NCBI GenBank assembly: GCA_012516935.1
Contig: JAAYVZ010000167.1
Coordinates: forward strand, 1 to 64,000
Reading direction: 5' to 3'
DNA from: Holophagae bacterium
GTDB taxonomy: Bacteria > Acidobacteriota > Thermoanaerobaculia > Thermoanaerobaculales > Thermoanaerobaculaceae
Length of the DNA: 64,000 nucleotides
Shown one piece after another: positions 17,005 through 55,193 of the stretch. A program made the position numbers and the translations under genes. Each line of letters starts with the position of its first letter. The first letter of the stretch is position 1. The notes below the pieces were generated by a model. It had not been told where the DNA came from. It did not search any database and saw only the letters and a program-made list of their open reading frames with translations.

Positions 17005-17139
17005 CACGGCGCAGCTCACTGCCTTGTTGGCCCGAGACCGGACCACGGCACATTGGGCGGCACGGGCGAGCCCGAGAACGCAGGGTCGGGTGGTAGAATG
17101 CGCCGCTTCGGCCCAGGCCGCAAGCCACGCGGAGGGATC

Positions 17140-18606
17140 GTGGAGGCAGGTGAGCTGCTGCGAGCCAATCGGCGCGCCAAGCTGGAGGCCCTTCGGCAGC
17201 GGGGGGTCGACCCCTTTCCAGCCCGGTTCCGGGTCGACGGGAGGGTGAGCGAGCTGGTCGCGCGCCACGCCGAGCTGGATGGTCCGTCACTGGAGGCGAC
17301 CCCGGTCTGGGTCCGGGTCGGCGGGCGGGTCACCGCGGTGCGGGGCCACGGCAAGGCCGCTTTCATTGACCTCTCGGACGGCGACGGGAGGCTCCAGGTC
17401 CATCTCCGGCGTGACACCCTCGGAGAGGAGGCGTTCGCGCTGCTCGGAACCCTCGACCTCGGTGACTTCTGGGGGGTCGAGGGTACGCTCTTCCGCACCC
17501 GGACCCACGAGCTCACGGTGAGGGCCGAGCGCGTCACGGTGCTGGCCAAAGCGCTGGCACCCTGGCCGGAGAAGTGGCACGGGCTGCAGGACCGCGAGCA
17601 AAGAGCCCGCCAGCGCTATCTGGATCTCGCGACGAACCCCGAGTCCCGCCGTGTCTTCGCGGCGCGCGCGGCGACCGTGCGCGAGATACGCAGCTTCCTC
17701 GAAGAACGAGGGTTCATCGAGGTCGAGACGCCGATGATGCAGCCGATCCCCGGCGGTGCGACGGCTCGTCCCTTCATCACCCACCACAACACGCTCGACC
17801 TCGACCTCTACCTTCGCATCGCCCCTGAGCTCTACCTCAAGCGACTCGTGGTCGGAGGGTTCGAACGGGTGTTCGAGATCAACCGCAACTTCCGCAACGA
17901 AGGGATCTCCACCCAGCACAACCCCGAGTTCACGATGTTGGAGTTCTACTGGGCGTACGCCGACTTCTCCGACCTCATGGATCTCACCCAGGAGATGCTC
18001 TGCCAGGTCGCGGCCCGGGTTGTGGGCACCGAGGTGCTCCCGTGGGGAGAGCAGCGCATCAGCCTCGAACGTCCGTGGAAGCGGTTGGGCATGCGTGAGG
18101 CCGTGCTGACGTTCTCGGACCTCGGACCGCAAGACCTCGCCGATCGGCCGGCTCTCGAGAACGCAGCGCGCCGTTTTGGCATCGGCGATGTCGAGCGGCT
18201 GTCGTCGGGCAAGCTCCTGGCCGAGCTGTTCGAGGCTACCGCAGAGAATAGGTTGGTTGATCCCACCTTCATCACCGACTTTCCGGCCGACATCTCGCCT
18301 CTCGCCAAGCGTAAGCCGGAAGACCCCTCGCTCACCGAGCGCTTCGAGCTCTACGTCGGTGGCATGGAGCTCGCGAACGCCTTCTCCGAGCTCAACGACC
18401 CGGACGACCAGCGGCGCCGTTTCGAGGAGCAAGTGCGGGTCACCGGTGGCGTCGTCGACGAGGACTACGTCCTGGCACTGGAGCACGGCATGCCGCCCAC
18501 GGCCGGGGAGGGCATCGGTATCGACCGGCTGGTGATGCTTCTGACGGGCTCGCGCTCGATTCGGGACGTCATCCTCTTCCCGCTCCTGCGCCCGAAAGAC
18601 GGGTGA
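17140..18606 (+). CDS. lysS: Lysyl-tRNA synthetase, class II
   Basis: LysS charges tRNA-Lys. The 488-residue protein has the N-terminal OB fold ([29 protein letters not shown]), motif 1, motif 2 [23 protein letters not shown] and motif 3 [26 protein letters not shown], all class IIb LysRS features. GTG 17140 has GGAGGG just upstream. A TAGAAT box at 17094-17099 is a probable -10. The upstream ATG that overlaps this box (17098) would not be translated. The stop overlaps the GTG start of the Lol permease, so lysS heads an envelope-biogenesis operon. Confidence 0.94.
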
Positions 18607-43021: not shown

Positions 43022-44071
43022 TCAAGCGATGGTGACGTCCGGACAGAGGTAGACGTCCTGAATGGCGTGCAGCAGCGCCACGCCGTCGGCCATCGGCTTC
43101 TGGAACGCCTTGCGACCTGAAATGAGCCCCATACCACCAGCACGCTTATTGACTACGGCGGTGAGCACCGCCTGCGCGAGGTCGTTTGCGCCCGAGGCTC
43201 CGCCGGAGTTGATCATCCCCATGCGGCCCAGATAGCAGTTGGCGACCTGCCAGCGGGTCCACTCGATGGGGTTGTTCACGGCCAGCTTCTCGTACACCAG
43301 CTTCGACGTGTGGCCGAAGCCGACCGCGGTGTAGCCGCCCTGGCACTCGGGCTGTTTCTGCTTGATGATGTCGGCTTCGATGGTGACGCCGATGTGATTG
43401 GCCTGCCCTGTCAGGTCGGCGGACGTGTGGTAGTCCACACCGTCCTTCTTGAACGCCGAGTTCCGCGTGTAGCACCACAGCACCGTGAACATCCCCAGCT
43501 CGTGGGCGGCCTGGAACGCCTCCGAGACCTCCTGGATCTGCCGACGCGACTCCGCTGAGCCGAAGTAGATGGTGGCGCCGATACCGGCCGCCCCGAGGTT
43601 GAACGCCTGCTCGACCGTGCCGTACATCGTCTGGTCGTAGGTCAGCGGATAGGTCAGGGTCTCGTTGTGGTTGAGCTTGACGATGAAGGGGATCCGGTGG
43701 GCCCAGCGGCGGGCCACCGAGCCCAGCACCCCGAGTGTCGAGGCGACGGCGTTACACCCGCCCTCCATCGCCAGACGTATGATGTTCTCGCCGTCCATGT
43801 AGATCGGGTTGGGCGCGAACGAGGCTGCGGCCGAGTGCTCGATCCCCTGGTCGACCGGCAGGATCGACAGGTAGCCGCTCCCGGCAAGACGTCCGGTCCC
43901 GAGCATCCAGCTCAGTGCCTTGAGCACGTTCACGGGCCGATCCGAAGGGATGAAGATCCGGTCTACGAAGTCGGGGCCCGGCAGGTGCAGCATGCTCTTG
44001 GGGATCCCCTGGCAGGTGTAGTCGAGCAGCCCGACCTTGTCACCCAGATGCTGGCGGATGGCGTCGATCAT
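43022..44071 (-). CDS. fbaB: Class I fructose-bisphosphate aldolase (FbaB type)
   Basis: The 349-residue Schiff-base aldolase works in gluconeogenesis or glycolysis. Typical segments are [68 protein letters not shown] and [19 protein letters not shown], all close to E. coli FbaB, which is nearly the same length. ATG 44071 has a perfect GGGAGGT 4 nt upstream, and an extended -10 (TGGTACAAT) lies about 25 nt before. It clearly has its own expression signals even though the upstream RluA frame continues into it without a stop. Confidence 0.93.
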
Positions 44072-45064
44072 GGGCACCTCCCTATGGGTTCCGATTGTAC
44101 CAGCTCTCGTCCCCCAAAGGTCCGACCGGTAGCTCCCTCGTGGCGGCACGAAACGTCGCTGCACCATCGACACGTCTTTGACGGCCTCGCCAACCTCGAC
44201 GCGGGGCTGGTTACGCCTTCGGCTCGCGTCACCGCGAGCAGTCGCACCCCGAGAGCCGCCTGCGGCGGCGCGCCTCGCGCAAGGCGGGGGATCGGGCTTC
44301 GATTCGAGGTGAACGAGCCCGGCCTCCCGGGCGACGGCCGAGATGCGTCCCCCGAGCTCGGCGAGAGCTGCGGCGAAGTCGGTGGGCAGTGGCGCCGCAA
44401 GGACGAGCGGCGGCTGGTTGGCGAGTGCCGGAAGGGCTAGACGCCAGGCGTGCAGCAAGGTGTGTCCGGGTGCGAGGTGGCGCCGCAGCCGGGCGTCGCG
44501 CACGCCACGATGACGGGGGCCGCCGTAGAGATCGTCGCCGACAACCGGATGCCCGGCGTGCGCGAGATGAACCCGGAGCTGGTGGGTGCGGCCGGTATGC
44601 GGCACGAGCTCCACGAGCGAGACATGCGGTGCGGTTGCGAGCACCCGGTAGCTGCTCGAGGCGAGCTTACCGCCGTCAGCGACCCGCATGCGGCGGCGGT
44701 CGCGGACGTCCGGCGCCAGCGGCCAGGCGTACCCGCCAACTGCGGGTCGTGGTGAGCCCCAGACGAGCGCCAGATAGGTTTTCTCGATCCGACGATCGGC
44801 GAAGGCGGACACGAGGAGACGGTGATACTCCGCGTCGCGGGCCACGAGAACCAGGCCGGAGGTGCCGATGTCCAAACGATGCACGAGCCATAACGACTGT
44901 GCATCCACTCCCCATACCTTTCGGTCTTCTTGAGAGAGGATCTCGGTCAGCCTCGAGACTGCATCATCTGGCTTGTTGCGAGACGTTGCCAGGCTGAGAC
45001 CAGGTGGCTTGTTGAACGCCACCAGTCGGTCATCGGAGAAGATCAACGCAACAGGATACTCCAC
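43022..45064 (-). CDS. RluA-family rRNA pseudouridine synthase, reading through in frame into fbaB
   Basis: The first ~260 residues form a pseudouridine synthase: [23 protein letters not shown], the catalytic [57 protein letters not shown]. No stop follows. A linker of about 90 residues (Arg/Pro-rich, with the fbaB promoter and ribosome site inside it) joins directly to the aldolase start. The result would be a 680-residue fusion. A lost stop codon or a small indel in sequence or assembly is the simplest reading; a true fusion protein is possible. Start is GTG 45064 or TTG 45082; neither has a strong ribosome site. Confidence 0.7.
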
Positions 45065-45103
45065 GGTGGAAGCTTGCCACAAGTTTTCGTCGTGCTCATC
45101 CTC

Positions 45104-45131
45104 TTGACAACGCGAATAAGAGGTTTACATT
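45104..45131 (+). promoter_or_regulatory. Strong promoter of the kamA cluster
   Basis: TTGACA (45104-45109), a 16-nt spacer and TACATT (45126-45131). A GTG start of a 62-codon frame lies 7 nt after the -10, while kamA starts about 320 nt further on. Confidence 0.65.
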
Positions 45132-45138
45132 GTGCGGC

Positions 45139-45327
45139 GTGGAGACCGATACCTCGCCAGACCACCCCCCAAGTATTTCGGTGCGCGTGACTTCCTGCCA
45201 CGCGTGCCGGCCGGGTGAGGCATCCCTGTCAATCGCCAACGTGCCTTTTCCCCCTGCGCGGGTCTCCGCGCGGGTGCATCTCACCTCCTGCTTGTGGCCC
45301 CGTGCCGCCGTGAAGCCCCAGGGATAA
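45139..45327 (+). CDS. Possible leaderless leader ORF of 62 residues upstream of kamA
   Basis: GTG 45139 (VETDTSPDHPPSISVRV) sits 7 nt after TACATT, the window's leaderless spacing, and runs to TAA 45325. The product has three cysteines, including SCHACRPGEA, and many Pro/Arg/Ser. I recognise no family. It could be a regulatory leader peptide, a small precursor peptide for the downstream ligases, or simply a chance frame across a structured RNA leader, since hairpins such as GCGCGG-GTCT-CCGCGC lie inside it. Confidence 0.3.
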   Translation: METDTSPDHPPSISVRVTSCHACRPGEASLSIANVPFPPARVSARVHLTSCLWPRAAVKPQG

Positions 45328-45459
45328 CGACGCGATGCGCATGGAGCCCCCCGGGGTGAAACGTCCGGTGCTGACCGGGCACGGTGTCCGGCCAGCGTTC
45401 AGCCGCAGGCTTTTCGCCGCTGCAAAACCTGAATCCTCCCCGTGTGGAGGTCGGAGACC
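45328..45459 (+). promoter_or_regulatory. Structured kamA leader with a hairpin masking the ribosome site
   Basis: The leader contains CCGGGCA-CGG-TGTCCGG (around 45380-45396) and, just before the start, CCTCC (45435-45439) that can pair with GGAGG (45446-45450). This would hide the Shine-Dalgarno of kamA. I could not match it to lysine, cobalamin, SAM or glycine riboswitches. It may be an unassigned regulatory RNA or a translation-coupled leader. Confidence 0.4.
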
Positions 45460-46620
45460 ATGAAAGAGACCACTGCACCAGCCGAACCACTGATACCTGG
45501 CGCGCGGCGCCTCGACATCTGCCGGATTCTCGGCGAGTCGTACGACCCCGCGCGCTGGAATGACTGGCACTGGCAGATGCGCCACCGCCTCAGCCGGCCC
45601 GAGCAGCTCGAGCAGCTCCTCCAGCTCATACCGGGAGAGCGCCGGGGCCTAGCGCTTTGTCAGGGCAAGCTTGCCGTTGCCGTTACGCCGTACCTCGCCG
45701 AGCTGCTCGACCCGCTCGACTCGTCATGTCCGCTGCGCATGCAGGTCGTGCCGCGCGAGGAGGAGGCGCTGGTGGCAGCCACCGACATGGTCGACCCGTG
45801 CGGTGAGGAGCACGACAGCGTGGTTCCTGGCCTGGTCCACCGCTACCCTGACCGCGTGCTGCTGCTGGCCATCGACACCTGTGCCGCGTACTGCCGGTAC
45901 TGCACGCGCTCACGTCTGGTCGCCCACGGTCGGCTCGGCGGGTTGGGGCAGCGTATCGATGCCATCATCGCCTATCTCGAGGCGCATACCGAGGTGCGGG
46001 ATGTCCTTATTTCCGGCGGCGATCCGTTGCTCTTCTCGGACGAGAAGCTCGACGAGCTGTTGGGACGGATCCGTGCTGTCCCGCACGTGGAGATGGTGCG
46101 GCTCGGTAGTCGCGTGGTGTCGTTCCTGCCGCAGCGCATCACACCTTCGCTGGTCACGGTGCTGCGCCAGCACCGAGTGTGGCTCTCGCTGCACTTCTCC
46201 CATGCCGCCGAGCTCACGCCGGAGGTCGCCCAGGCGTGCGACCTGCTCGCCGACGGTGGGATTCCGCTGGGCAGCCAGACCGTGCTGCTGCGCGGGATCA
46301 ACGACTCGGTGACGGAGCTGCGGGCGCTTTTTCACGGGCTGCTGAAGCTCCGCGTGCGCCCGTACTACCTCTACCAGTGCGACCCGGTGGTCGGGACGAG
46401 TCACCTACGTACGACGGTGGCCAAGGGGCTCGAGCTGGTTGCCGGCCTGCGGGGTCACACCAGCGGCTATGCCGTGCCCGCCTACGTGATCGACGCGCCT
46501 GGAGGGGGCGGCAAGGTGCCGATCCACCCCGAGACCGTGGTCGGCTACGAGAACGGTACGCTGCTGCTCCGCAACTGGGAAGGCGGGGTGTACACCTACC
46601 GTGATCCTGTGAACGTGTAG
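45460..46620 (+). CDS. kamA: Lysine 2,3-aminomutase (KamA family radical SAM enzyme)
   Basis: KamA turns L-lysine into L-beta-lysine using SAM, a 4Fe-4S cluster and PLP. In this 386-residue protein the cluster motif is C141, C145, C148 (CAAYCRYC). The PLP lysine is K352 in GGGGKVPIHPE. The two aspartates that hold the lysine side-chain amine in the Clostridium enzyme are both conserved (D308 in YQCDPV and D345 in VIDAPGG), so lysine is the likely substrate. It is longer than EpmB and has no EpmA neighbour. ATG 45460 follows GGAGG/GGAG. It is followed by two ATP-grasp ligases and a GNAT acetyltransferase, suggesting that beta-lysine is built into a larger product. Confidence 0.9.
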   Translation: MKETTAPAEPLIPGARRLDICRILGESYDPARWNDWHWQMRHRLSRPEQLEQLLQLIPGERRGLALCQGKLAVAVTPYLAELLDPLDSSCPLRMQVVPREEEALVAATDMVDPCGEEHDSVVPGLVHRYPDRVLLLAIDTCAAYCRYCTRSRLVAHGRLGGLGQRIDAIIAYLEAHTEVRDVLISGGDPLLFSDEKLDELLGRIRAVPHVEMVRLGSRVVSFLPQRITPSLVTVLRQHRVWLSLHFSHAAELTPEVAQACDLLADGGIPLGSQTVLLRGINDSVTELRALFHGLLKLRVRPYYLYQCDPVVGTSHLRTTVAKGLELVAGLRGHTSGYAVPAYVIDAPGGGGKVPIHPETVVGYENGTLLLRNWEGGVYTYRDPVNV

Positions 46621-46631
46621 GATCGTTGGGC

Positions 46632-46685
46632 ATGTCGTCTCCGCTCGGACTTCGACCACGTTCTGGCCGCGAGGCGGGAGCTTGA
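46632..46685 (+). CDS. Possible 17-residue ORF between kamA and the first ligase
   Basis: ATG 46632 (MSSPLGLRPRSGREAGA) is 8 nt after TAGGAT, which includes the kamA stop. Its TGA ends 2 nt before the ligase GTG, and the ligase ribosome site GGGAG lies inside its last codons. The arrangement would couple translation. Length alone gives little support. Confidence 0.2.
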   Translation: MSSPLGLRPRSGREAGA

Positions 46686-46687
46686 CC

Positions 46688-47683
46688 GTGCGGGTAGGAC
46701 TGACGTACGACCTCCGGGACGACTACCTGGCGCTCGGCTACTCGGCGGAGGAGACGGCGGAGTTCGACCGCGCCGAGACGATCGACGTCATCGCAGAGAC
46801 ACTCCGCTCGCTCGGCTACGAGGTCGATCGGATCGGGCATGCGCGAGCCTTGATGGCGCGCCTGCTGGCCGGAGACCGGTGGGACCTGGTGTTCAACGTG
46901 GCGGAAGGGCTGCACGGCTACGGCCGCGAGGCGCTGGTGCCGGCGTTGCTGGACGCCTATCAGATCCCATACACCTTCTCGGACCCGCTGGTGCTCGCCG
47001 TGACGCTCCACAAGGCGGCGTGCAAGCGCCTGGTCCGCGACCTCGGTGTGGCCACCCCGGCGTTCGCAGTCGTGGAGTCGGAGTCCGACCTGTGGGCCGT
47101 CGACCTCCCGTTTCCGCTGTTCGCAAAGCCGCTGGCGGAGGGCACCTCGAAGGGGATCTCGTCGGCCTCACGCTTGGTCGACCGGCCGGGTCTCGAGGGC
47201 CGCTGCCGCGAGCTACTCGCGGCCTTCGGGCAGCCGGTGCTGGTCGAGACCTACCTGCCTGGCCGCGAAGTGACGGTGGGCGTGCTCGGCACCGGGCCAC
47301 GGGCGCGAGTCCTCGCGGTCATGGAAGTGCTGCTCCGGGAAGCGGCCGAGGCCGGCGTGTACTCGCTGCACAACAAGGAGCACTACGAGCGGCTGGTCGA
47401 CTACCGGCTGGTCCCGCTCGACTCCGCTCTCGGGAGCGAGGCCGCCGAGATGAGCCTGCGCGTCTGGCGGGGGCTCGGCTGCCGGGACGGCGGGCGCGTC
47501 GACCTGCGGCAGGGGCCGGACGGACGGCTGCAGTTCATCGAGGTGAACCCCCTCGCCGGCCTCCATTACGAGCACTCGGACCTGCCCATCATGGCGCGCC
47601 TGTCCGGGATGCGCTTCGACGAGCTTGTGGCCGCCGTCATGGGCTCCGCGTCGGAGCGGCTCCGCGCGGCAGGAAAGGAGTAG
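46688..47683 (+). CDS. D-Ala-D-Ala ligase-like ATP-grasp enzyme 1
   Basis: The 331-residue protein has the ATP-grasp layout of carboxylate-amine ligases: N-terminal VRVGLTYDLRDDY..., LVFNVAEGLHGYGREALVPALLDAYQIPYTFSDPLVLAVTLHKAACKRLV, FPLFAKPLAEGTSKGISSAS (ATP lysine and glycine-rich loop), VETYLPGREVTVGVLGTG, and the metal site DLRQGPDGRLQFIEVNPLAGLHYEHSDLPIMARLSG. It should activate an acid by phosphorylation and join it to an amine; neither substrate is known. GTG 46688 has GGGAG 7 nt upstream; TTG 46682 is an alternative. The next gene starts 3 nt after the stop. Confidence 0.82.
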   Translation: MRVGLTYDLRDDYLALGYSAEETAEFDRAETIDVIAETLRSLGYEVDRIGHARALMARLLAGDRWDLVFNVAEGLHGYGREALVPALLDAYQIPYTFSDPLVLAVTLHKAACKRLVRDLGVATPAFAVVESESDLWAVDLPFPLFAKPLAEGTSKGISSASRLVDRPGLEGRCRELLAAFGQPVLVETYLPGREVTVGVLGTGPRARVLAVMEVLLREAAEAGVYSLHNKEHYERLVDYRLVPLDSALGSEAAEMSLRVWRGLGCRDGGRVDLRQGPDGRLQFIEVNPLAGLHYEHSDLPIMARLSGMRFDELVAAVMGSASERLRAAGKE

Positions 47684-47686
47684 GCG

Positions 47687-48748
47687 ATGGCGGTCGAGCG
47701 CGCGTGGCCCGAGTGGCTCGCACACCGGCGGACTCGTCGGGTCGCCATTGCCCACACGTTCATCACCTCCACCTCCCGACCCGACGACCAGGACACTCTC
47801 GAGGAAATCGAGACGGTGGCCGCCGCGCTTGGCGAGCTCGGCTTCGACCCCGAGCCGGTACCGTTCACCCTCGACCTCCACGCGTTCATCGCGGCGCTCC
47901 GGGACCTCGAGCCGGCGTTCGTCTTCAACCTCGTGGAAGGGGTCGACGGCACGGGCCGGCTCATCCACATGGCACCGGCGCTCTGCGAGCATCTCGGCCT
48001 CGCCTGCACGGGTGCGCCCGCCTCGGCGATCCTGGTCACGACATCGAAGCTCGAGACCAAGCGGCAACTCAAGGTTGCGGGGCTGCCGACGGCCCCCTGG
48101 GCCACCCCAGCACGCCTCGCGGCCGGGAGAGTCGGGTTTCCGGGGCCGTACATCCTCAAGCCGGTGTGGGAGGACGCGTCGGTGGGTATCGACCACGACG
48201 GTGTCTGCGACAGCCGGGCGCGCCTCGTGGAGCTGTGGCGCGAGCGGACGCGGGGTTCGGGCGGCGAGTTCTTCGCGGAACGCTACATCGACGGACGGGA
48301 GATCAACCAGGCGCTGCTCGCTGGTCCTCGCGGCCCGCAGGCGCTGCCGACGGCGGAGATCGACTTCCTCAACTGGGAGGAGGGTGCCCCCCGTATTGTC
48401 GGTTGGCGTGCGAAGTGGGACGAGGACGCACCGGAGTTCGAACGCACCCGGCGTCGTTTCTTACGTGGCGGTAGCGACGTCGGGCTCCGGCGGCGGGTCA
48501 AAGCGCTGGCGCGACGCTGCTGGCACTTGTTCGGCCTCCATGGCTACGCACGGGTCGACCTGAGGGTCGACCGGAGCGGACGGCCGTATATCCTGGAGGT
48601 CAACGCCAACCCCTGCGTCTCGCCGGATGCCGGGTTCCTGGCTGCCACGCGAGAGCTCGGGATGCAGCCCAATGACGTCGTGGCTCGCATCATCTGCGAC
48701 TGCCCTCCGCCTGCCGCTCCCCTCGCCGGCAGCCAATACCACCACTGA
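47687..48748 (+). CDS. D-Ala-D-Ala ligase-like ATP-grasp enzyme 2
   Basis: This 353-residue ATP-grasp protein is only distantly similar to its neighbour. Motifs: RRVAIAHTFITSTSRPDDQDTLEEIETVAAALGELG, AFVFNLVEGVDGTGRLIHMAPALCEHLGLACTGAPASAILVTTSKLETKRQL, PYILKPVWEDASVGIDHDGVC, EFFAERYIDGREINQALLAG, and the metal site YARVDLRVDRSGRPYILEVNANPCVSPDAGFLAA. ATG 47687 directly follows the previous stop. The tail after residue ~335 has CDCPP and ends in HH. Two unlike ligases in a row suggest two successive amide-bond steps, for example on beta-lysine from KamA (inference). Confidence 0.82.
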   Translation: MAVERAWPEWLAHRRTRRVAIAHTFITSTSRPDDQDTLEEIETVAAALGELGFDPEPVPFTLDLHAFIAALRDLEPAFVFNLVEGVDGTGRLIHMAPALCEHLGLACTGAPASAILVTTSKLETKRQLKVAGLPTAPWATPARLAAGRVGFPGPYILKPVWEDASVGIDHDGVCDSRARLVELWRERTRGSGGEFFAERYIDGREINQALLAGPRGPQALPTAEIDFLNWEEGAPRIVGWRAKWDEDAPEFERTRRRFLRGGSDVGLRRRVKALARRCWHLFGLHGYARVDLRVDRSGRPYILEVNANPCVSPDAGFLAATRELGMQPNDVVARIICDCPPPAAPLAGSQYHH

Positions 48749-48760
48749 TCCGGAGCCCCC

Positions 48761-49255
48761 ATGGACGACCTGTTGTTTCGCACCGCGGTGAAGCCCTCCG
48801 ACCCGGACGCCGTCCGGCGCATCGTGGAGTCCACCGGGTTTTTCTACCCCTACGAGGTGGATGTCGCCGTCGAGCTGGTCGACGCGCACCTCGCAGAGGG
48901 CGAAGCCTCGGGCTACCACTTCGTGTTCGCCGAGCTCGGCGGCGAAACGGTGGGGTACGGGTGCGTCGGGCCGATTGCCTGCACGCAGTCGAGCTTCGAC
49001 TTCTTTTGGATCGCAGTGCACTCGCGCTGTCGAGGTCGGGGAGTGGGACGCCACCTGGTCGAGGCGTGCGAGGCCCGCATGCGCCAGCTCGGCGCCTCGC
49101 GCGTGTACGTCGAGACGTCGGGGCGGGAGCAGTACGAGCCGACCAGGCGCTTCTACCTCGCCTGCGGCTATCAAGAGGTCGCGGTGTTTCCGGACTACTA
49201 CGCCCCCGGTGACGCCAAGGTCGTCTACCTCAAGGTGCTCGGGCCGGCGATCTAG
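48761..49255 (+). CDS. GNAT family N-acetyltransferase
   Basis: The 164-residue protein has the acetyl-CoA loop CRGRGVGRHLVEACEARMRQLG and the beta-strand/helix end region YVETSGREQYEPTRRFYLACGYQEVAVFPDYYAPGDAKVVYLKVL typical of GNATs. It is the last gene of the kamA cluster, 12 nt after ATP-grasp 2. A beta-lysine N6-acetyltransferase (AblB) would be larger, so this one may instead acetylate the ligase product or give self-protection. ATG 48761 is the first start; the ribosome site CCGGAGCC is modest. Confidence 0.85.
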   Translation: MDDLLFRTAVKPSDPDAVRRIVESTGFFYPYEVDVAVELVDAHLAEGEASGYHFVFAELGGETVGYGCVGPIACTQSSFDFFWIAVHSRCRGRGVGRHLVEACEARMRQLGASRVYVETSGREQYEPTRRFYLACGYQEVAVFPDYYAPGDAKVVYLKVLGPAI

Positions 49256-49267
49256 CCGGCCGCTCGC

Positions 49268-50443
49268 TCAGGCGGCGGAGGGCAGCGGAGGCGGTCCCGC
49301 CTTCTTCCTGCGCGTGAGGATGAGCACGAGGGCCACGGCGGCGACGGCGAGCAGACCGATCCCCAGCAGCGGCCGATGGGCGATCCACGCCAGAGCGATG
49401 ACCACCAGGGCGATGACGGCGGCGATGAGGAACGAGACGGCCGCCGTCCCCTTGCCCAGCAGGTTGCCGATGAACGGGACGACGTCGCCGAGCACGACGA
49501 ACGGGCGGAACAAGGCGTTGAGGCCGACGAAGAGCAGGACGAAGCCGACCAGCCGCAAGAGCCAGGTGAGCATCGTGTTGCTCTGCTCGGCGGCCTCGAA
49601 CATGGCGTCGGCTGGGCGAACGCCCAGCGCAAGCATTTGCAATGCCCTCCCGGCCTTGGTCTGGTACGCGGTGAGGGTGCCGCCGGTCTGCTGAGCCACG
49701 ACACTGACCGTGGTGGGTCGAACCATCGCGAACGACAGCCGCAGATCTCCGACTTCGGGACGGCCAGGATCGAACCCCAGGTAGAGGTAGCTGCCCTGAA
49801 GGTGCGCGCGTCGGCCGCGAGCGGGTGCGATCGCGACCCGTGCAGGGTCAGGTGGAGGTAGCGGGTCGAAGGTGCCGATCTGGCTCACCAACCCAGGTGA
49901 GAGCGTGAACGCGCCGAGCGTCACCGTGGCGGCCCGCCAGGTCTCGCTGTCGAGCGGGAACGATCCCGGGTTGGTGTGCCCTTCCGGCTTTTTGAAGTCG
50001 TTGGAGTCGATTGGCTTGTCGACCCACGCCCGCTCGTACGTGTAGGTGGTGACGGTCTCCTCGCCACCGCCGAGCTTCTTCCTGGTCTCGGATCGAGAGC
50101 TCTCCTGCCACTGGTACATCTCGACCTTGCGTCGGAGAGCGATGGCCTGCACTTGTACACCACACACGGGGTCGACGAGCGTCTCGCTGGTAGTGGCCTC
50201 ACCGCTGGTGTGGATGGGCTTGCCCTCGTTGCCGGCATCCACTCGCTCGGCGAGGACCGAGACGACATCGCGAGCGCCTTCCTTGAGGCTGCGGGCGGTG
50301 GTGACGGCCCGACCCTCGTTCCACCAAAGAAGCACCACGCCAATCGCGGCAATGACCAGCCCGCCGAAGATGCCCTTGATGGAGCCGCCCAGCTTGCTTC
50401 CCCACGAGCGGCGAGTGACCTCGGTGTAGGTGTCGGCAGCCAT
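49268..50443 (-). CDS. TMEM43-family membrane protein
   Basis: The 391-residue protein follows the TMEM43 layout: one N-terminal transmembrane helix with KGIFGGLVIAAIGVVLLWWNEGRAVTTARSLKEGARDVVSV, a large loop domain (residues about 60-270) with VYTYERAWV-like and DSNDFKKPEGHTNP segments, and three C-terminal helices. GAFTLSPGLVSQIG is also characteristic of bacterial TMEM43 proteins. Function in bacteria is unknown; some sit with membrane-stress or prohibitin-like systems. GGAGGGACA precedes ATG 50443. It converges with the kamA cluster 12 nt away. Confidence 0.82.
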   Translation of the reverse strand: MAADTYTEVTRRSWGSKLGGSIKGIFGGLVIAAIGVVLLWWNEGRAVTTARSLKEGARDVVSVLAERVDAGNEGKPIHTSGEATTSETLVDPVCGVQVQAIALRRKVEMYQWQESSRSETRKKLGGGEETVTTYTYERAWVDKPIDSNDFKKPEGHTNPGSFPLDSETWRAATVTLGAFTLSPGLVSQIGTFDPLPPPDPARVAIAPARGRRAHLQGSYLYLGFDPGRPEVGDLRLSFAMVRPTTVSVVAQQTGGTLTAYQTKAGRALQMLALGVRPADAMFEAAEQSNTMLTWLLRLVGFVLLFVGLNALFRPFVVLGDVVPFIGNLLGKGTAAVSFLIAAVIALVVIALAWIAHRPLLGIGLLAVAAVALVLILTRRKKAGPPPLPSAA

Positions 50444-50666
50444 TGTCCCTCCACGAGTCGAACACTCGCGCCAGCATGGCGCAGCCTGGCGGTGCTCGTC
50501 AATAGCGACCCGACAGCGATCCCGACCGCTGGCTGCCGAGCCTTCGCTGGCAGGGCTGGTGCCAGTGCGCACGAGCCCGTCCCCGGCTGCGATGGCCGCG
50601 CGCGAGTCACGCGCCGGTCCCGGGCCAGCACAAAAGCCCCCGACAGCGCCCACCGCCGAATCGGGC

Positions 50667-50681
50667 TAGACTTGCGCCATG
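50667..50681 (+). promoter_or_regulatory. -10 box TAGACT with ATG 6 nt downstream (S46 peptidase)
   Basis: TAGACT (50667-50672), 6 nt, ATG 50679. There is no Shine-Dalgarno. Nothing else is seen in the 235-nt divergent gap with the TMEM43 gene. Confidence 0.5.
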
Positions 50682-52847
50682 TACGTGCGCACCGCTCTGG
50701 CCACAGTGTCTGCGGTACTGGCGGCAGTGGGTGTCTGGGCCTCGGAGGGCAAGTGGACGCCCCAGCAGCTCTCCCAGCTCGGCGTGAAATGGCTCCGAGA
50801 GCAGGGCCTCCAGCTCGAACCAAGCGAGCTGTGGAACCCGGCGACCTCGCAGGGTCTGCTGGCAGCCGTAGCCGATATCGGCGGCTGCTCGAGTGCCCTC
50901 GTGTCCCCCCAGGGCTTGCTGCTGACCAACCACCACTGCGTCTGGTCCGTGCTCCAGCAGCACAGCAGGGCCGGAAAGAACCTGATCGCGACCGGCTTTT
51001 TGGCGTCGACGCTCGAGGCCGAGCTGCCAGCTCCGAGCCTTTCAGCACTCTTTCCCACGGGGTTTAGGGATGTCACTGCGGAGCTCGTGGGCGCCGCGCC
51101 CGCCGGCGCCGATGACCTGACTCGCGCGCACGCCGTTGCGCAGGCCGAGAAGGCGCTGGTGGCGGCATGCGAGGGTCAGGGGGACCGACGCTGCAAGGTC
51201 GCCGCCTTCGATGACGGTCTCCAGTACGTCCTGATCGAGAGCCTCGAGTACCGGGACGTCCGTTTGGTGTACGCGCCGCCCCGGGCGCTCGGCGACTTCG
51301 GCGGCGAGGTTGACAACTGGATGTGGCCTCGCCATACGGGTGACTTTGCCCTCCTACGGCTGTGGGGCAGCCGAGCCGGCCAGCCAGCTGCGATGTCGAA
51401 GGACAACGTGCCACTGTCGACCCAGCACTTCCTCAAGCTGGGGTTTCAGGGTGTGACCCCGGGCGAGCTCGTCTTCACGGCAGGGTACCCGGTCCGTTCG
51501 TTCAGATCCCTCACAGCGCCGGAAATGGGAGAGCGGGCGGGTCTTTACTTTCCCCTCCGAGCCGAGCTGTACAGCGACTGGCTGACGATCCTCCAGAACG
51601 CTGCCGCGGAGTCGGAAGCGACCCGCCTGGCGCTTTCCGATCGGATGCAGAACCTGGCCAACGTGGCCAAGAATGCGCGTGGCCAGGTGGCGGGTCTGCG
51701 GCGGGGCAACCTGGTCGAGAAGAAGTGGGCGCTCGAGAATCTGGTGTTGGCGCGGGCGGCCGCCCGGGCGGAGATGCGCGAGGCAGTAGCGGCGCGCCAG
51801 ATGCTGGCGTCGATCGTCGAGCAGCGACGGACGGTATGGCGGCGAGATGCGCTGCTGGAGGCGATGCAGCGTGGGCCGTTGCCGTTGCACTTTGCCCTGA
51901 CACTGGTGCGCTGGGCGCGCGAACGGGTGAAACCCGACATGGAACGGCAACCGGAGTACATGGAGCGCAACCGGGCGCGGCTGTGGGAGGCGTTGTTGCG
52001 GGCGCAGGAGGGTTTCCACCTGCCGACTGAAAAGGCACTGATGACCGACCTCTTCCTCCGTTTCGCCGCCCTGCCGGAGGAGTGCCGCAGCCCCACCGTG
52101 GACCGGTTTCTGGGCCCGGCGCGCAGTAGGGAGGCGATCGCCGGACGAGTGGACCACCTCCTGGCACCGACGCGGGTGCTGGACTGGCCCTCCCTGAAGA
52201 CGATGTTCGACGAAAGCTTTGCAGCGCTCCGCCTGCGCCGTGACCCGCTGCTCGAGCTGGCCATCGCCCTCGATGACGAGCTACGGACGGCCGAGAAACG
52301 GCGTGAGCAGTCCGAGGGGACGATCTCACGGCTGCGGCCGGCATGGCTGGCGGCAGTGCACGAGCTCGTGGGTCAGCCGGTGTCGCCGGATGCCAACCAG
52401 ACACTCCGTGTGAGCTTCGGGCACGTCAAAGGGTACGCCCCCCAGGACGGTCTGCTGATGCTGCCGCAGACCACGCTTTCGGGGCTGCTGGCCAAGGCCG
52501 GGGAAGAGCCGCCGTTCACGGTCTCCGAGGCCATTTGGGCGGCGAGCCGACGGATCACCGAAAGCCGCTGGCGCGACGGGACGCTGGGGGACATCCCGGT
52601 CAACTTCCTGGCCGACCTCGATACCTCGCTCGGGACCTCCGGCTCGCCCATCCTCAACGCCAGGGGTGAGCTGGTGGGGCTCAACTTCGATCGGGTCTGG
52701 GAAGCCGTGGCGTCCGACTTCGGGTACGACCCCGAGCTCAACCGCAACATCTCGGTCGACGTTCGTTTCCTGCTCTGGACGCTGGAAGAGGTCGAGGGTC
52801 GTCCGGCCGAGAGGTTGCTTCGCGAGCTGGGGGCGAAACCCTTCTGA
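50679..52847 (+). CDS. S46 family dipeptidyl-peptidase (DPP7/DPP11-like), secreted
   Basis: S46 enzymes trim dipeptides from the N-termini of oligopeptides in the periplasm. The 722-residue precursor has a signal peptide (YVRTALATVSAVLAAVGVWA) and the mature start EGKWTPQQLSQLGVKWLREQGLQL. The catalytic triad is His in LLLTNHHCVWSVLQ (about residue 88), Asp in EVDNWMWPRHTGDFALLRLW, and Ser in LDTSLGTSGSPILNARGELVGLNFDRVWE (about 660). An all-helical insert lies between about 290 and 560, as in the family. Whether it prefers hydrophobic or acidic P1 residues cannot be decided safely. It abuts the convergent HD-GYP gene with no gap. Confidence 0.9.
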   Translation: MYVRTALATVSAVLAAVGVWASEGKWTPQQLSQLGVKWLREQGLQLEPSELWNPATSQGLLAAVADIGGCSSALVSPQGLLLTNHHCVWSVLQQHSRAGKNLIATGFLASTLEAELPAPSLSALFPTGFRDVTAELVGAAPAGADDLTRAHAVAQAEKALVAACEGQGDRRCKVAAFDDGLQYVLIESLEYRDVRLVYAPPRALGDFGGEVDNWMWPRHTGDFALLRLWGSRAGQPAAMSKDNVPLSTQHFLKLGFQGVTPGELVFTAGYPVRSFRSLTAPEMGERAGLYFPLRAELYSDWLTILQNAAAESEATRLALSDRMQNLANVAKNARGQVAGLRRGNLVEKKWALENLVLARAAARAEMREAVAARQMLASIVEQRRTVWRRDALLEAMQRGPLPLHFALTLVRWARERVKPDMERQPEYMERNRARLWEALLRAQEGFHLPTEKALMTDLFLRFAALPEECRSPTVDRFLGPARSREAIAGRVDHLLAPTRVLDWPSLKTMFDESFAALRLRRDPLLELAIALDDELRTAEKRREQSEGTISRLRPAWLAAVHELVGQPVSPDANQTLRVSFGHVKGYAPQDGLLMLPQTTLSGLLAKAGEEPPFTVSEAIWAASRRITESRWRDGTLGDIPVNFLADLDTSLGTSGSPILNARGELVGLNFDRVWEAVASDFGYDPELNRNISVDVRFLLWTLEEVEGRPAERLLRELGAKPF

Positions 52848-54809
52848 TCAGCTCGGAGGCGCCGCGCTTCGCACCATCCGCACGAGGGCTGCGAACACCT
52901 CGGGGTCCCAACGTCCCGCCGCCGTCTCGTCGTTGAGCAGGCACAGGGCCTGCTCCGGTGTGAAGCTACGTCGGTAGGAGCGGGCCGAGGTCAGCGCGTC
53001 GTAGGCGTCCACCATGCCGAGGATGCGTGCCCCGAGAGAGATCTCCTCGCCCTGGAGGCCGTCCGGGTAGCCGCTGCCGTCATATCGCTCGTGATGGTGG
53101 CGGATGAGCTCGAGCAACCGGCGCAGCGTCTTGAGCGGCCGGCAGATGAGTTCGCCGAGGTCGGGATGGCGCCGGACGGTCTGCAGCTCGCTGCTGTCGA
53201 GCCGACCCTCCTTGTTGAGCACCGACTCGGGAATACCGATCTTACCGATGTCGTGGAGTTGTCCAGCCATGTGCAGCAGCCAGCAGTCCTCATCCGGCAG
53301 ACCGAGGTCGCGCCCGAGGCGGGCCGCCAGCACCCCGACCCGTTCCGAGTGTCCGCGGGTGTAGGCGTCCTTCGCTTCGAGAGCCGAGGCGAGGGAGAGG
53401 ATGACGCTGTGGTGCTCCTCGAGGCCGCGGAAGTACTGGCGGATGCGCAACAGGGAGTTGACTCGGGCGACCAGCTCGAGTCGGTTGATGGGTAGTACCA
53501 GGAAGTCGTCGGCCCACACGCGTGGGCCATCGGGCAGGTCGCTGAGCTCGCGCTGAGCGGCGGCCAGGATGACTGGAAGGAACTCCGCGCCAGGGCGGCT
53601 CTTGATGGCGCGGGTGAGCTCGAACCCACTGCGATTCTGACCGTGGATGTCCACCATCACGAGGTCGGGTTTCTCCCGCTCCACGGCCTCCACCACGGCA
53701 GCCGCGGTCTCCACGCTCACGACCTCGTGCCCCTCAGCCTCCAACACCGTTCGCAAGAACTCGCGGCTGGATGCCAGGTCATCGCCGAGGAGGATCCGAC
53801 CGCGCCGGTTTCCGCTCGGGATCGGCAGGAGCTCGGACCAGGGGGTGGCGAGGTCGGCGCTTGGGGCGACGACCGACACCAGGGCTTCCACGATCTCGGC
53901 GTGGTACTCACCGCGCGCCGCGGCCGAGCGGAGCTCCTTCGCGGCCACCTCAGGGCCCTCGGTCGAGGCGATCGCGTCGTACAAGTTGGCGAGCGCAACG
54001 ACCTCGATCGGCAGCTCGAAGCTCGTGCCCCGGAGGCCATCCGGGTAACCCGAGCCATCGAGCCGCTCGTGGTGGCCGCGCACGAGCGCCCGGGCACCGG
54101 CGAAGCTCGAGAACGGCGCCAGAATCCGCTCACCGAGCACGACGTGATGGCGGTACTCCTCCCAGCTCCTCTCGGCCAGCGTGTGCTCGGGACCGAGCAG
54201 GCGGTCGGGCAATCCGATCTTGCCGATGTCGTGGAGTATGGCGCCTCGGGTGATGAGCTCCACCTGGTCGCTGGGTGCCGCGAGGTGCTGCGCCAGCGCC
54301 GTCGCCAGCACCGCGACGCGCTGCGAGTGGCCGGCAGTACGCGAGTCCTTGCTCTCCAGTGCCTGCACCATGGAGATGAGAATGCTCTCCGAGGTGTCCA
54401 GCTCGTCCCGCAGGCGCTTGATGCGCACCAGCGACCGGACGCGGGCGGCCAGCTCGTGGATGTCGACAGGCTTGTTGATGAAGTCATCGGCTCCGAGCTC
54501 GTAGGCGCGGACCTTGTCGTCCACCCTGGTCAGGGCCGTGAGCATGACCACGGGCACGAAGTGAGTGTCACGGCTGCGCTTGAGCCGACGGCAGACCTCG
54601 AACCCGTCGAGCCGAGGCATCATGACGTCGAGAACGATGCAGTCGGGCAGATCGGCGGCCACGGCAGCGAGCGCCTCCTCGCCGTCGGCCGCACGACGAA
54701 CCCTGAACCCTTCCTCGCTCAACACCTCCTCCACCAGCGTCAGGTTCTCGGGCTGATCGTCGACAGCCAGCACCGAGCCGCCAGCGGGAAGAGAGCCGGC
54801 TGTGGTCAC
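52848..54809 (-). CDS. Double response regulator: REC-HD-GYP-REC-HD-GYP
   Basis: The 653-residue protein consists of two receiver / HD-GYP units. Receiver 1 (about 12-125) has D61 in CIVLDVMMP and the lysine in FINKPVD. HD-GYP 1 shows ILHDIGKIGLPD and GHHERLDGSGYPDG. Receiver 2 (about 355-465) keeps an aspartate (VMVDIHG) but has LPIN where the conserved lysine should be, so it is probably degenerate. HD-GYP 2 has QLHDIGKIGIPE and HHHERYDGSGYPDG. HD-GYP domains hydrolyse cyclic di-GMP. The GTG start overlaps the preceding receiver gene (GTGA). One gene doing two HD-GYP reactions under two receivers is unusual. Confidence 0.88.
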   Translation of the reverse strand: MTTAGSLPAGGSVLAVDDQPENLTLVEEVLSEEGFRVRRAADGEEALAAVAADLPDCIVLDVMMPRLDGFEVCRRLKRSRDTHFVPVVMLTALTRVDDKVRAYELGADDFINKPVDIHELAARVRSLVRIKRLRDELDTSESILISMVQALESKDSRTAGHSQRVAVLATALAQHLAAPSDQVELITRGAILHDIGKIGLPDRLLGPEHTLAERSWEEYRHHVVLGERILAPFSSFAGARALVRGHHERLDGSGYPDGLRGTSFELPIEVVALANLYDAIASTEGPEVAAKELRSAAARGEYHAEIVEALVSVVAPSADLATPWSELLPIPSGNRRGRILLGDDLASSREFLRTVLEAEGHEVVSVETAAAVVEAVEREKPDLVMVDIHGQNRSGFELTRAIKSRPGAEFLPVILAAAQRELSDLPDGPRVWADDFLVLPINRLELVARVNSLLRIRQYFRGLEEHHSVILSLASALEAKDAYTRGHSERVGVLAARLGRDLGLPDEDCWLLHMAGQLHDIGKIGIPESVLNKEGRLDSSELQTVRRHPDLGELICRPLKTLRRLLELIRHHHERYDGSGYPDGLQGEEISLGARILGMVDAYDALTSARSYRRSFTPEQALCLLNDETAAGRWDPEVFAALVRMVRSAAPPS

Positions 54810-55193
54810 GCCCTGACCTCGCCCTCCGCCCGCGACCGGGCCAGGGCAGCCTGCACCTCGTCCACGAACGATGTCACGTTGATCGGCTTGGCGATGTAGC
54901 CGTCGCACCCTCCGGCTATGAAGCGTTCACGGTCGCCGCGCATGGCATGGGCCGTGAGGGCGAGAACCGGTATGCGAGCGAACCTGGGGTCGCGCCGCAG
55001 CTCCTCGACCAGCGTGAGCCCGTCGGTACCGGGAAGCTGCATGTCCATCAGCACCAGATCCGGTCGGCCGGCGGCGAGCTGGGCGCGTGCCTCCTCGGCG
55101 TCCCGCGCCTTTCGCACCTTCAGGCCGGCCTCCTCGAGCAGGAACTCGACCAGCTCGAGGTTTTGCTCGTTGTCCTCCACCACCAGGATGGTG

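Follow-up and report, generated by a model that had tools for sequence, protein, structure and literature searches.

A conserved gene set for a lysine 2,3-aminomutase, two ATP-grasp ligases and a GNAT acetyltransferase as a candidate pathway to acetylated beta-lysine peptides

Two described osmolyte pathways come closest to the locus analyzed here. In methanogens, the osmolyte N-epsilon-acetyl-beta-lysine is produced by an aminomutase and an acetyltransferase (AblA/AblB), and a second osmolyte, N-acetylglutaminylglutamine amide (NAGGN), is an acetylated dipeptide (PMC1224877). The locus in question is carried by a 64,000-nucleotide stretch of DNA from a Holophagae bacterium of the Thermoanaerobaculaceae (Acidobacteriota; assembly GCA_012516935.1, contig JAAYVZ010000167.1, positions 1 to 64,000 of the forward strand), and this entire stretch is referred to below as the window. 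Four consecutive genes encode a lysine 2,3-aminomutase (KamA), two ATP-grasp ligases (LigA and LigB) and a GNAT acetyltransferase; an earlier note, prepared from the sequence alone, had read them as a candidate pathway for a beta-lysine-derived product.

Our data support the reading of these four genes as one functional unit that has been conserved, and we consider it probable that their joint product is an acetylated di- or tripeptide of beta-lysine, which most likely serves as a solute or reserve compound inside the cell. No description of this gene set was found in the literature searched, a search that left most subscription journals outside its reach.

Linkage and co-inheritance of the four genes

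Coordinates, together with profile and structure matches, confirm that the four genes are of the types originally named and that all of them are read from the plus strand. kamA, encoding a radical S-adenosylmethionine enzyme that uses pyridoxal phosphate (PLP), extends from 45460 to 46620; its ATG at 45460 is preceded by GGAGG, and a GTG at 45442, upstream in the open frame, is an alternative start. It is followed by ligA (46688-47683; GTG start, with TTG at 46682 as an alternative) and ligB (47687-48748; its AAGGAG ribosome-binding site shares nucleotides with the 3' end of ligA), which encode the first and second member of a pair of amide ligases with the ATP-grasp fold of D-alanine-D-alanine ligase (Ddl). 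The gene for a GNAT N-acetyltransferase of the 2r7h type (48761-49255) completes the set. The spacing of 0-3 nucleotides that had been reported for the ligase genes holds for the ligA-ligB gap, which measures 3 nucleotides, while the gaps between kamA and ligA (about 67 nucleotides) and between ligB and the GNAT gene (12 nucleotides) are larger.

When LigB was used as the query against one genome per species, 26 loci were recovered, mainly from Bacteroidales and including one record labelled Deltaproteobacteria; nearly all of them reproduce the KamA-LigA-LigB-GNAT order and the shared strand, or as much of this arrangement as short contigs permit. Among 297 genomes from the phylum to which the window itself belongs, strong LigB orthologues are present in 14 (the window's genome included), and weaker LigA-LigB pairs, most of which show a second gene order (LigA-LigB-GNAT-KamA), occur in many more. 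In the phylum that contains the genome of locus L031 (record: Syntrophobacterales) as well as sulfate reducers, LigA is found at E <= 1e-50 in 123 of 345 genomes, and each of the 20 strong-LigA loci fetched with their flanks (from 19 genomes) carries all four genes. The same is true for four of the five second-type candidates fetched with flanks from the Bacteroidota sample. Two main gene orders, accompanied by scattered variants, are thus distributed over these three phylum samples.

To quantify the linkage, we used 70 LigA-LigB pairs flanked on either side by no less than 2.5 kb of DNA and counted KamA when it was positioned within 6 kb. KamA is present at 67 of the 70 pairs, in all 67 cases on the same strand, GNAT at 65, and both are present at 63. 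The association with KamA constitutes independent evidence because the loci had been picked for the similarity of their ligases, irrespective of KamA, and since the set recurs in other phyla, the linkage of the four genes is far beyond chance. The earlier note had considered that its proposal would fail if these genes were rarely linked in relatives; the counts given above are the opposite of this outcome.

The distance matrices of the four proteins from 59 complete loci are closely correlated (Mantel r of 0.86-0.92 versus a shuffled maximum of 0.18), although related sequences inflate these values. This agreement is no proof of vertical descent: in the trees, sequences from different phyla group with one another, so the set is also passed between phyla, for the most part with its genes together.

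The aminomutase, the ligases and the accessory genes

The window's KamA matches the LAM_C profile and the KamA family profile TIGR00238 (above the subfamily cut-off), and it can be aligned over 357 amino acids with the solved lysine 2,3-aminomutase 2a5h (E 4e-125). The cluster, PLP and lysine-binding residues, which had been described as intact, are kept in this alignment (C125, C129 and C132 of the CxxxCxxC cluster motif, Lys337, Asp293 and Asp330), as is R134; we take the cysteines to hold the cluster, Lys337 to bind PLP and the two aspartates to bind lysine. D293 and D330 are retained by every sampled KamA of the two-ligase module, the exceptions being KamA proteins outside the module. The AblA equivalog profile TIGR03820 has a cut-off of 525 bits, and both the KamA of the window (423 bits) and those of other modules (449-486 bits) score below it. 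The predicted conversion of L-lysine into beta-lysine is well supported by these residues.

LigA and LigB share an identity of 27% and match the Pfam family PF07478 (Dala_Dala_lig_C) with 77 and 52 bits, respectively; neither reaches the Ddl family cut-offs (145 and 88 bits versus 243 or more). AlphaFold models built from alignments of relatives attained predicted confidence values (pLDDT) of 89.6 for LigA and 89.4 for LigB, and the best PDB fold for each is DdlB (8evz). Over almost their entire length, both models can be matched to Ddl-group ligases that act on free amino acids. In a survey of 45 LigA and 44 LigB sequences, the residues that bind ATP, Mg and the oxyanion are invariant or nearly so. 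LigA retains K111, K149, E189, K232, R272, D274, E287 and N289, LigB possesses the equivalents, and the catalytic Arg, Glu and Asn of Ddl are found on the ATP-grasp fold of both proteins.

The roles of these catalytic residues, of the pocket His and of Tyr216 are established for Ddl. Where the Ddl pocket has His63, both ligases carry a Glu (E75 in 45/45 LigA sequences; E84 in 44/44 LigB sequences), and Tyr216 corresponds to an invariant Trp (Trp244) in LigB. An acidic residue at the His position would suit an amino group. The canonical Ddl of the window's genome is encoded on another contig (C132), and in our tree LigA and LigB form two separate deep families apart from it. We therefore rejected a housekeeping Ddl function for either ligase on account of the separate Ddl and the different pocket residues; that phylogeny might reveal such a function had been foreseen as a possible failure of the proposal.

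At two Bacteroidota loci (L137, 8042-10259; L138, 7903-10226), only LigA and an aminomutase are paired, as a two-gene unit. Both of these aminomutases carry Gln at the position of Asp293, and the one tested, that of L138, scores nearest to arginine 2,3-aminomutase. Since LigA stays paired with aminomutases of differing residue type, this arrangement suggests that LigA is the ligase that takes the beta-amino acid.

Ligase relatives and a Ddl-like ligase also occur in other settings. A viral contig from IMG/VR (L166, 6004-7020) carries a LigA relative of 44% identity among apparent glycosyltransferases and methyltransferases, with neither KamA nor LigB nearby, and a plasmid of Vibrio tubiashii (L108, 5980-12139) carries a Ddl-like ligase gene within a type VI secretion block. 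Single-gene LigB relatives beside a putative zinc metallopeptidase (Peptidase_Mx) recur in L097 (5918-8207), L101 and L103; we regarded these as a different ATP-grasp system and left them out.

The GNAT protein of the window matches Acetyltransf_1 (PF00583; 54 bits) and structure 2r7h (E 4e-40), which was deposited as a 'putative D-alanine N-acetyltransferase'. In 10 of the 70 LigA-LigB pairs, drawn from all three phylum samples, an HDAC-family gene encoding a GNAT-HDAC fusion is located inside or beside the module (L033, L070, L083, L084, L152, L170, L171, L172, L183 and L186). Locus L170 has retained only a piece of this gene, on the opposite strand, and in L070 the HDAC-type gene is fused with the GNAT of the module. 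The best structure matches of the deacetylase half are acetylpolyamine amidohydrolases (E 2e-67), enzymes of a type that acts on acetylated long-chain amines, and such an activity fits a beta-lysine side chain masked by acetylation in a reversible manner. A DMT_6 membrane gene lies between LigB and GNAT in L167, and apparently also in L179, and directly 3' of GNAT in many Bacteroidales; a YitT-family membrane gene follows the module closely on its 3' side in L171, L180, L184 and L186. These recurrent HDAC, DMT_6 or YitT partners are a new observation of this analysis. Phosphate uptake genes (Pst/PhoU, or PhoU-like and PiT) adjoin the module in five loci, upstream in L065-L067 and downstream in L167 and L179, an arrangement that may be due to chance.

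The strong promoter that the earlier note had placed in front of the set can be traced to a site on the plus strand at 45104-45131 (TTGACA-16-TACATT; 10/12 consensus positions), 329 nucleotides upstream of the kamA start. It was the only site found in a consensus scan in which 0.3 sites are expected by chance, and it is suggestive only as a promoter of the set. The 329-nucleotide leader of kamA gave no Rfam match and hence no riboswitch, and the same holds for the DNA beside the module in eight relatives. Divergent from kamA, on the minus strand (43022-45082), a single frame of 686 amino acids combines a fructose-bisphosphate aldolase-like protein with an RluA-type pseudouridine synthase and represents either a fusion or a missed start. 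On the 3' side of the module, inspection of the translations by eye indicated a membrane protein (49268-50653, minus strand), an S46-type dipeptidyl peptidase (50679-52847, plus strand) and a double HD-GYP response regulator (52848-54908, minus strand).

Proposed product and competing explanations

We infer the ligation partner, the substrates, the order of steps, the product and its role as follows. KamA would convert L-lysine into beta-lysine. LigA would use ATP to activate an acid as its acyl phosphate and join it to an amine, with beta-lysine most likely being one of the two partners, and LigB would form a second amide bond. The GNAT protein would then transfer an acetyl group to an amine, most likely that of the beta-lysine unit, and the result would be a small di- or tripeptide of beta-lysine in acetylated form. 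In those relatives that possess the acetylpolyamine-deacetylase-like enzyme, such an acetyl group could be removed again, and transport of the product may fall to the small membrane protein (DMT_6 or YitT). The beta-lysine pathway originally proposed thus stands with respect to the conserved unit, the lysine-type KamA and the non-Ddl nature of the ligases, while the ligation of beta-lysine, its acetylation and the resulting product stay at the level of prediction. The set occurs widely, on chromosomes and mostly in single copy, it lacks regulators and resistance genes, and a deacetylase accompanies it in relatives; these features suggest, with moderate strength, an intracellular solute or a nitrogen/carbon reserve rather than a weapon.

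The same chemistry could instead serve a secreted specialized metabolite containing beta-lysine (an antibiotic, a signal or a metal ligand), which we consider unlikely. Beta-lysine is a component of antibiotics such as streptothricin and viomycin, and the DMT_6 or YitT genes adjoining some modules could be seen in this light. A Thioflavicoccus plasmid (L107, 2683-8164) groups KamA and a Ddl-like ligase with SbnA (for 2,3-diaminopropionate), an ornithine cyclodeaminase-like protein and a diaminobutyrate transaminase; this is likely a separate natural-product cluster based on a beta-amino acid, and it hints that diamino acids can be ligation partners. However, neither carrier domains nor resistance genes, regulators or exporters are encoded in the window, strong LigA matches occur in about a third of the 345-genome phylum sample, and the parallel divergence of the four genes is that of a stable set with a physiological function.

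Alternatively, KamA and GNAT could produce only N-acetyl-beta-lysine, in a manner resembling AblA/AblB, with the ligases serving a separate purpose. This is improbable: no match to AblB (TIGR03827) was found in the window's genome in a search whose controls were positive, the GNAT protein is not AblB, as had been pointed out earlier, and strict AblB-type osmolyte synthesis was rejected. Moreover, the LigA-LigB-GNAT order is kept even when KamA is positioned at the other end, and all four genes co-evolve. An assembly of a beta-lysine-containing component of the cell wall or envelope, for which the Ddl fold of both ligases could be invoked, is slightly less probable still in view of the separate canonical Ddl, the exchanged pocket residues described above, and the lack of recurrent Mur, Fem or other cell-wall genes beside the module in our neighbor analysis.

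Some ATP-grasp enzymes modify peptides, for instance those for graspetides (PMC8939145), but a protein or ribosomal peptide as the acceptor of beta-lysine is very improbable here. The fit of both models to free amino-acid ligases speaks against it, and no gene for a small precursor was noticed next to the module, although small genes were not searched systematically.

A role of KamA in the beta-lysylation of elongation factor P (EF-P), with its neighbors being unrelated, can be dismissed almost entirely: a related KamA in L151 directly adjoins EF-P and EpmA genes, but it lies outside any module and lacks Asp293, whereas EpmA was not found in the entire 98%-complete genome of the window, and its two EF-P paralogues (L155 and L156) carry the loops PGNWRG and PSARGA without the lysine that is usually modified. 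The only strong match to the GenX profile (17662-18579) falls in a full-length housekeeping lysyl-tRNA synthetase (17053-18606). What had been deduced about EpmA from the window alone therefore applies genome-wide. Beta-lysine 5,6-aminomutase (PF09043; KamD, lysine fermentation) gave no match in the genome either, with control genomes being equally silent.

Several observations weigh against the acetylated beta-lysine peptide that we favor. Three of the 70 pairs have no KamA nearby and five have no recognized GNAT; the promoter is weak, and neither a regulatory element nor a link to salt was found. The KamA of the window branches in our tree with those of L071, L072 and L140, apart from the main type I KamA proteins, so single genes are sometimes exchanged. 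The set is also patchy, being absent from four genomes of the same order and from most of the same class, and is thus dispensable. Searches of the window's genome detected neither HDAC nor DMT_6, which makes these partners optional.

Only tentatively do we extend the solute or reserve role further, to an undescribed class of acetylated beta-lysine di- and tripeptides that would be made by KamA, LigA, LigB and GNAT, turned over by the HDAC protein in many hosts, and used as a common cytoplasmic solute or reserve by mostly anaerobic members of several phyla.

Comparison with described systems

If our proposal is true, an unrecognized beta-amino-acid peptide is produced by a substantial fraction of the sulfate reducers and by many anaerobic Bacteroidota, metabolome data from sediments, digesters and saline springs lack one of their regular constituents, and two new families of amide ligases for beta-amino-acid peptides exist. 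It would also correct current annotations, in which relatives of the ligases go by the name of D-Ala-D-Ala ligase or just ATP-grasp and 2r7h carries its D-alanine label.

With Ddl, both ligases share the fold, the ATP, Mg and oxyanion residues and the best PDB match; they differ by the His63 to Glu exchange, by Tyr216 to Trp in LigB, and by their separate families in a genome that has its own Ddl. EpmB/EpmA likewise relies on a lysine 2,3-aminomutase of the KamA family, but the window's genome lacks EpmA and the EF-P lysine, and its ligases are of the ATP-grasp and not of the tRNA-synthetase-like type. The acetylpolyamine amidohydrolases of the HDAC family resemble the accessory protein of relatives, which differs in being fused to a GNAT domain.

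The AblA/AblB system is similar in combining a lysine 2,3-aminomutase and an acetyltransferase in one operon, whereas the window's set has a GNAT protein that is not AblB, a KamA below the AblA cut-off and two additional amide ligases. NAGGN synthesis uses a GNAT/ATP-grasp enzyme and in this way also links a GNAT and an ATP-grasp ligase to an acetylated dipeptide solute; the module differs by its unrelated Ddl-type ligases and by an enzyme forming a beta-amino acid, and no NAGGN amidotransferase (AsnO) was seen in the module loci inspected, for which no dedicated search was made. Because AblB was tested for and is absent, and because NAGGN genes were not seen, we do not place the set in either solute pathway. 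Under the acetylated beta-lysine peptide reading, which is the best supported, it would work in the manner of a blend of the N-epsilon-acetyl-beta-lysine and NAGGN pathways.

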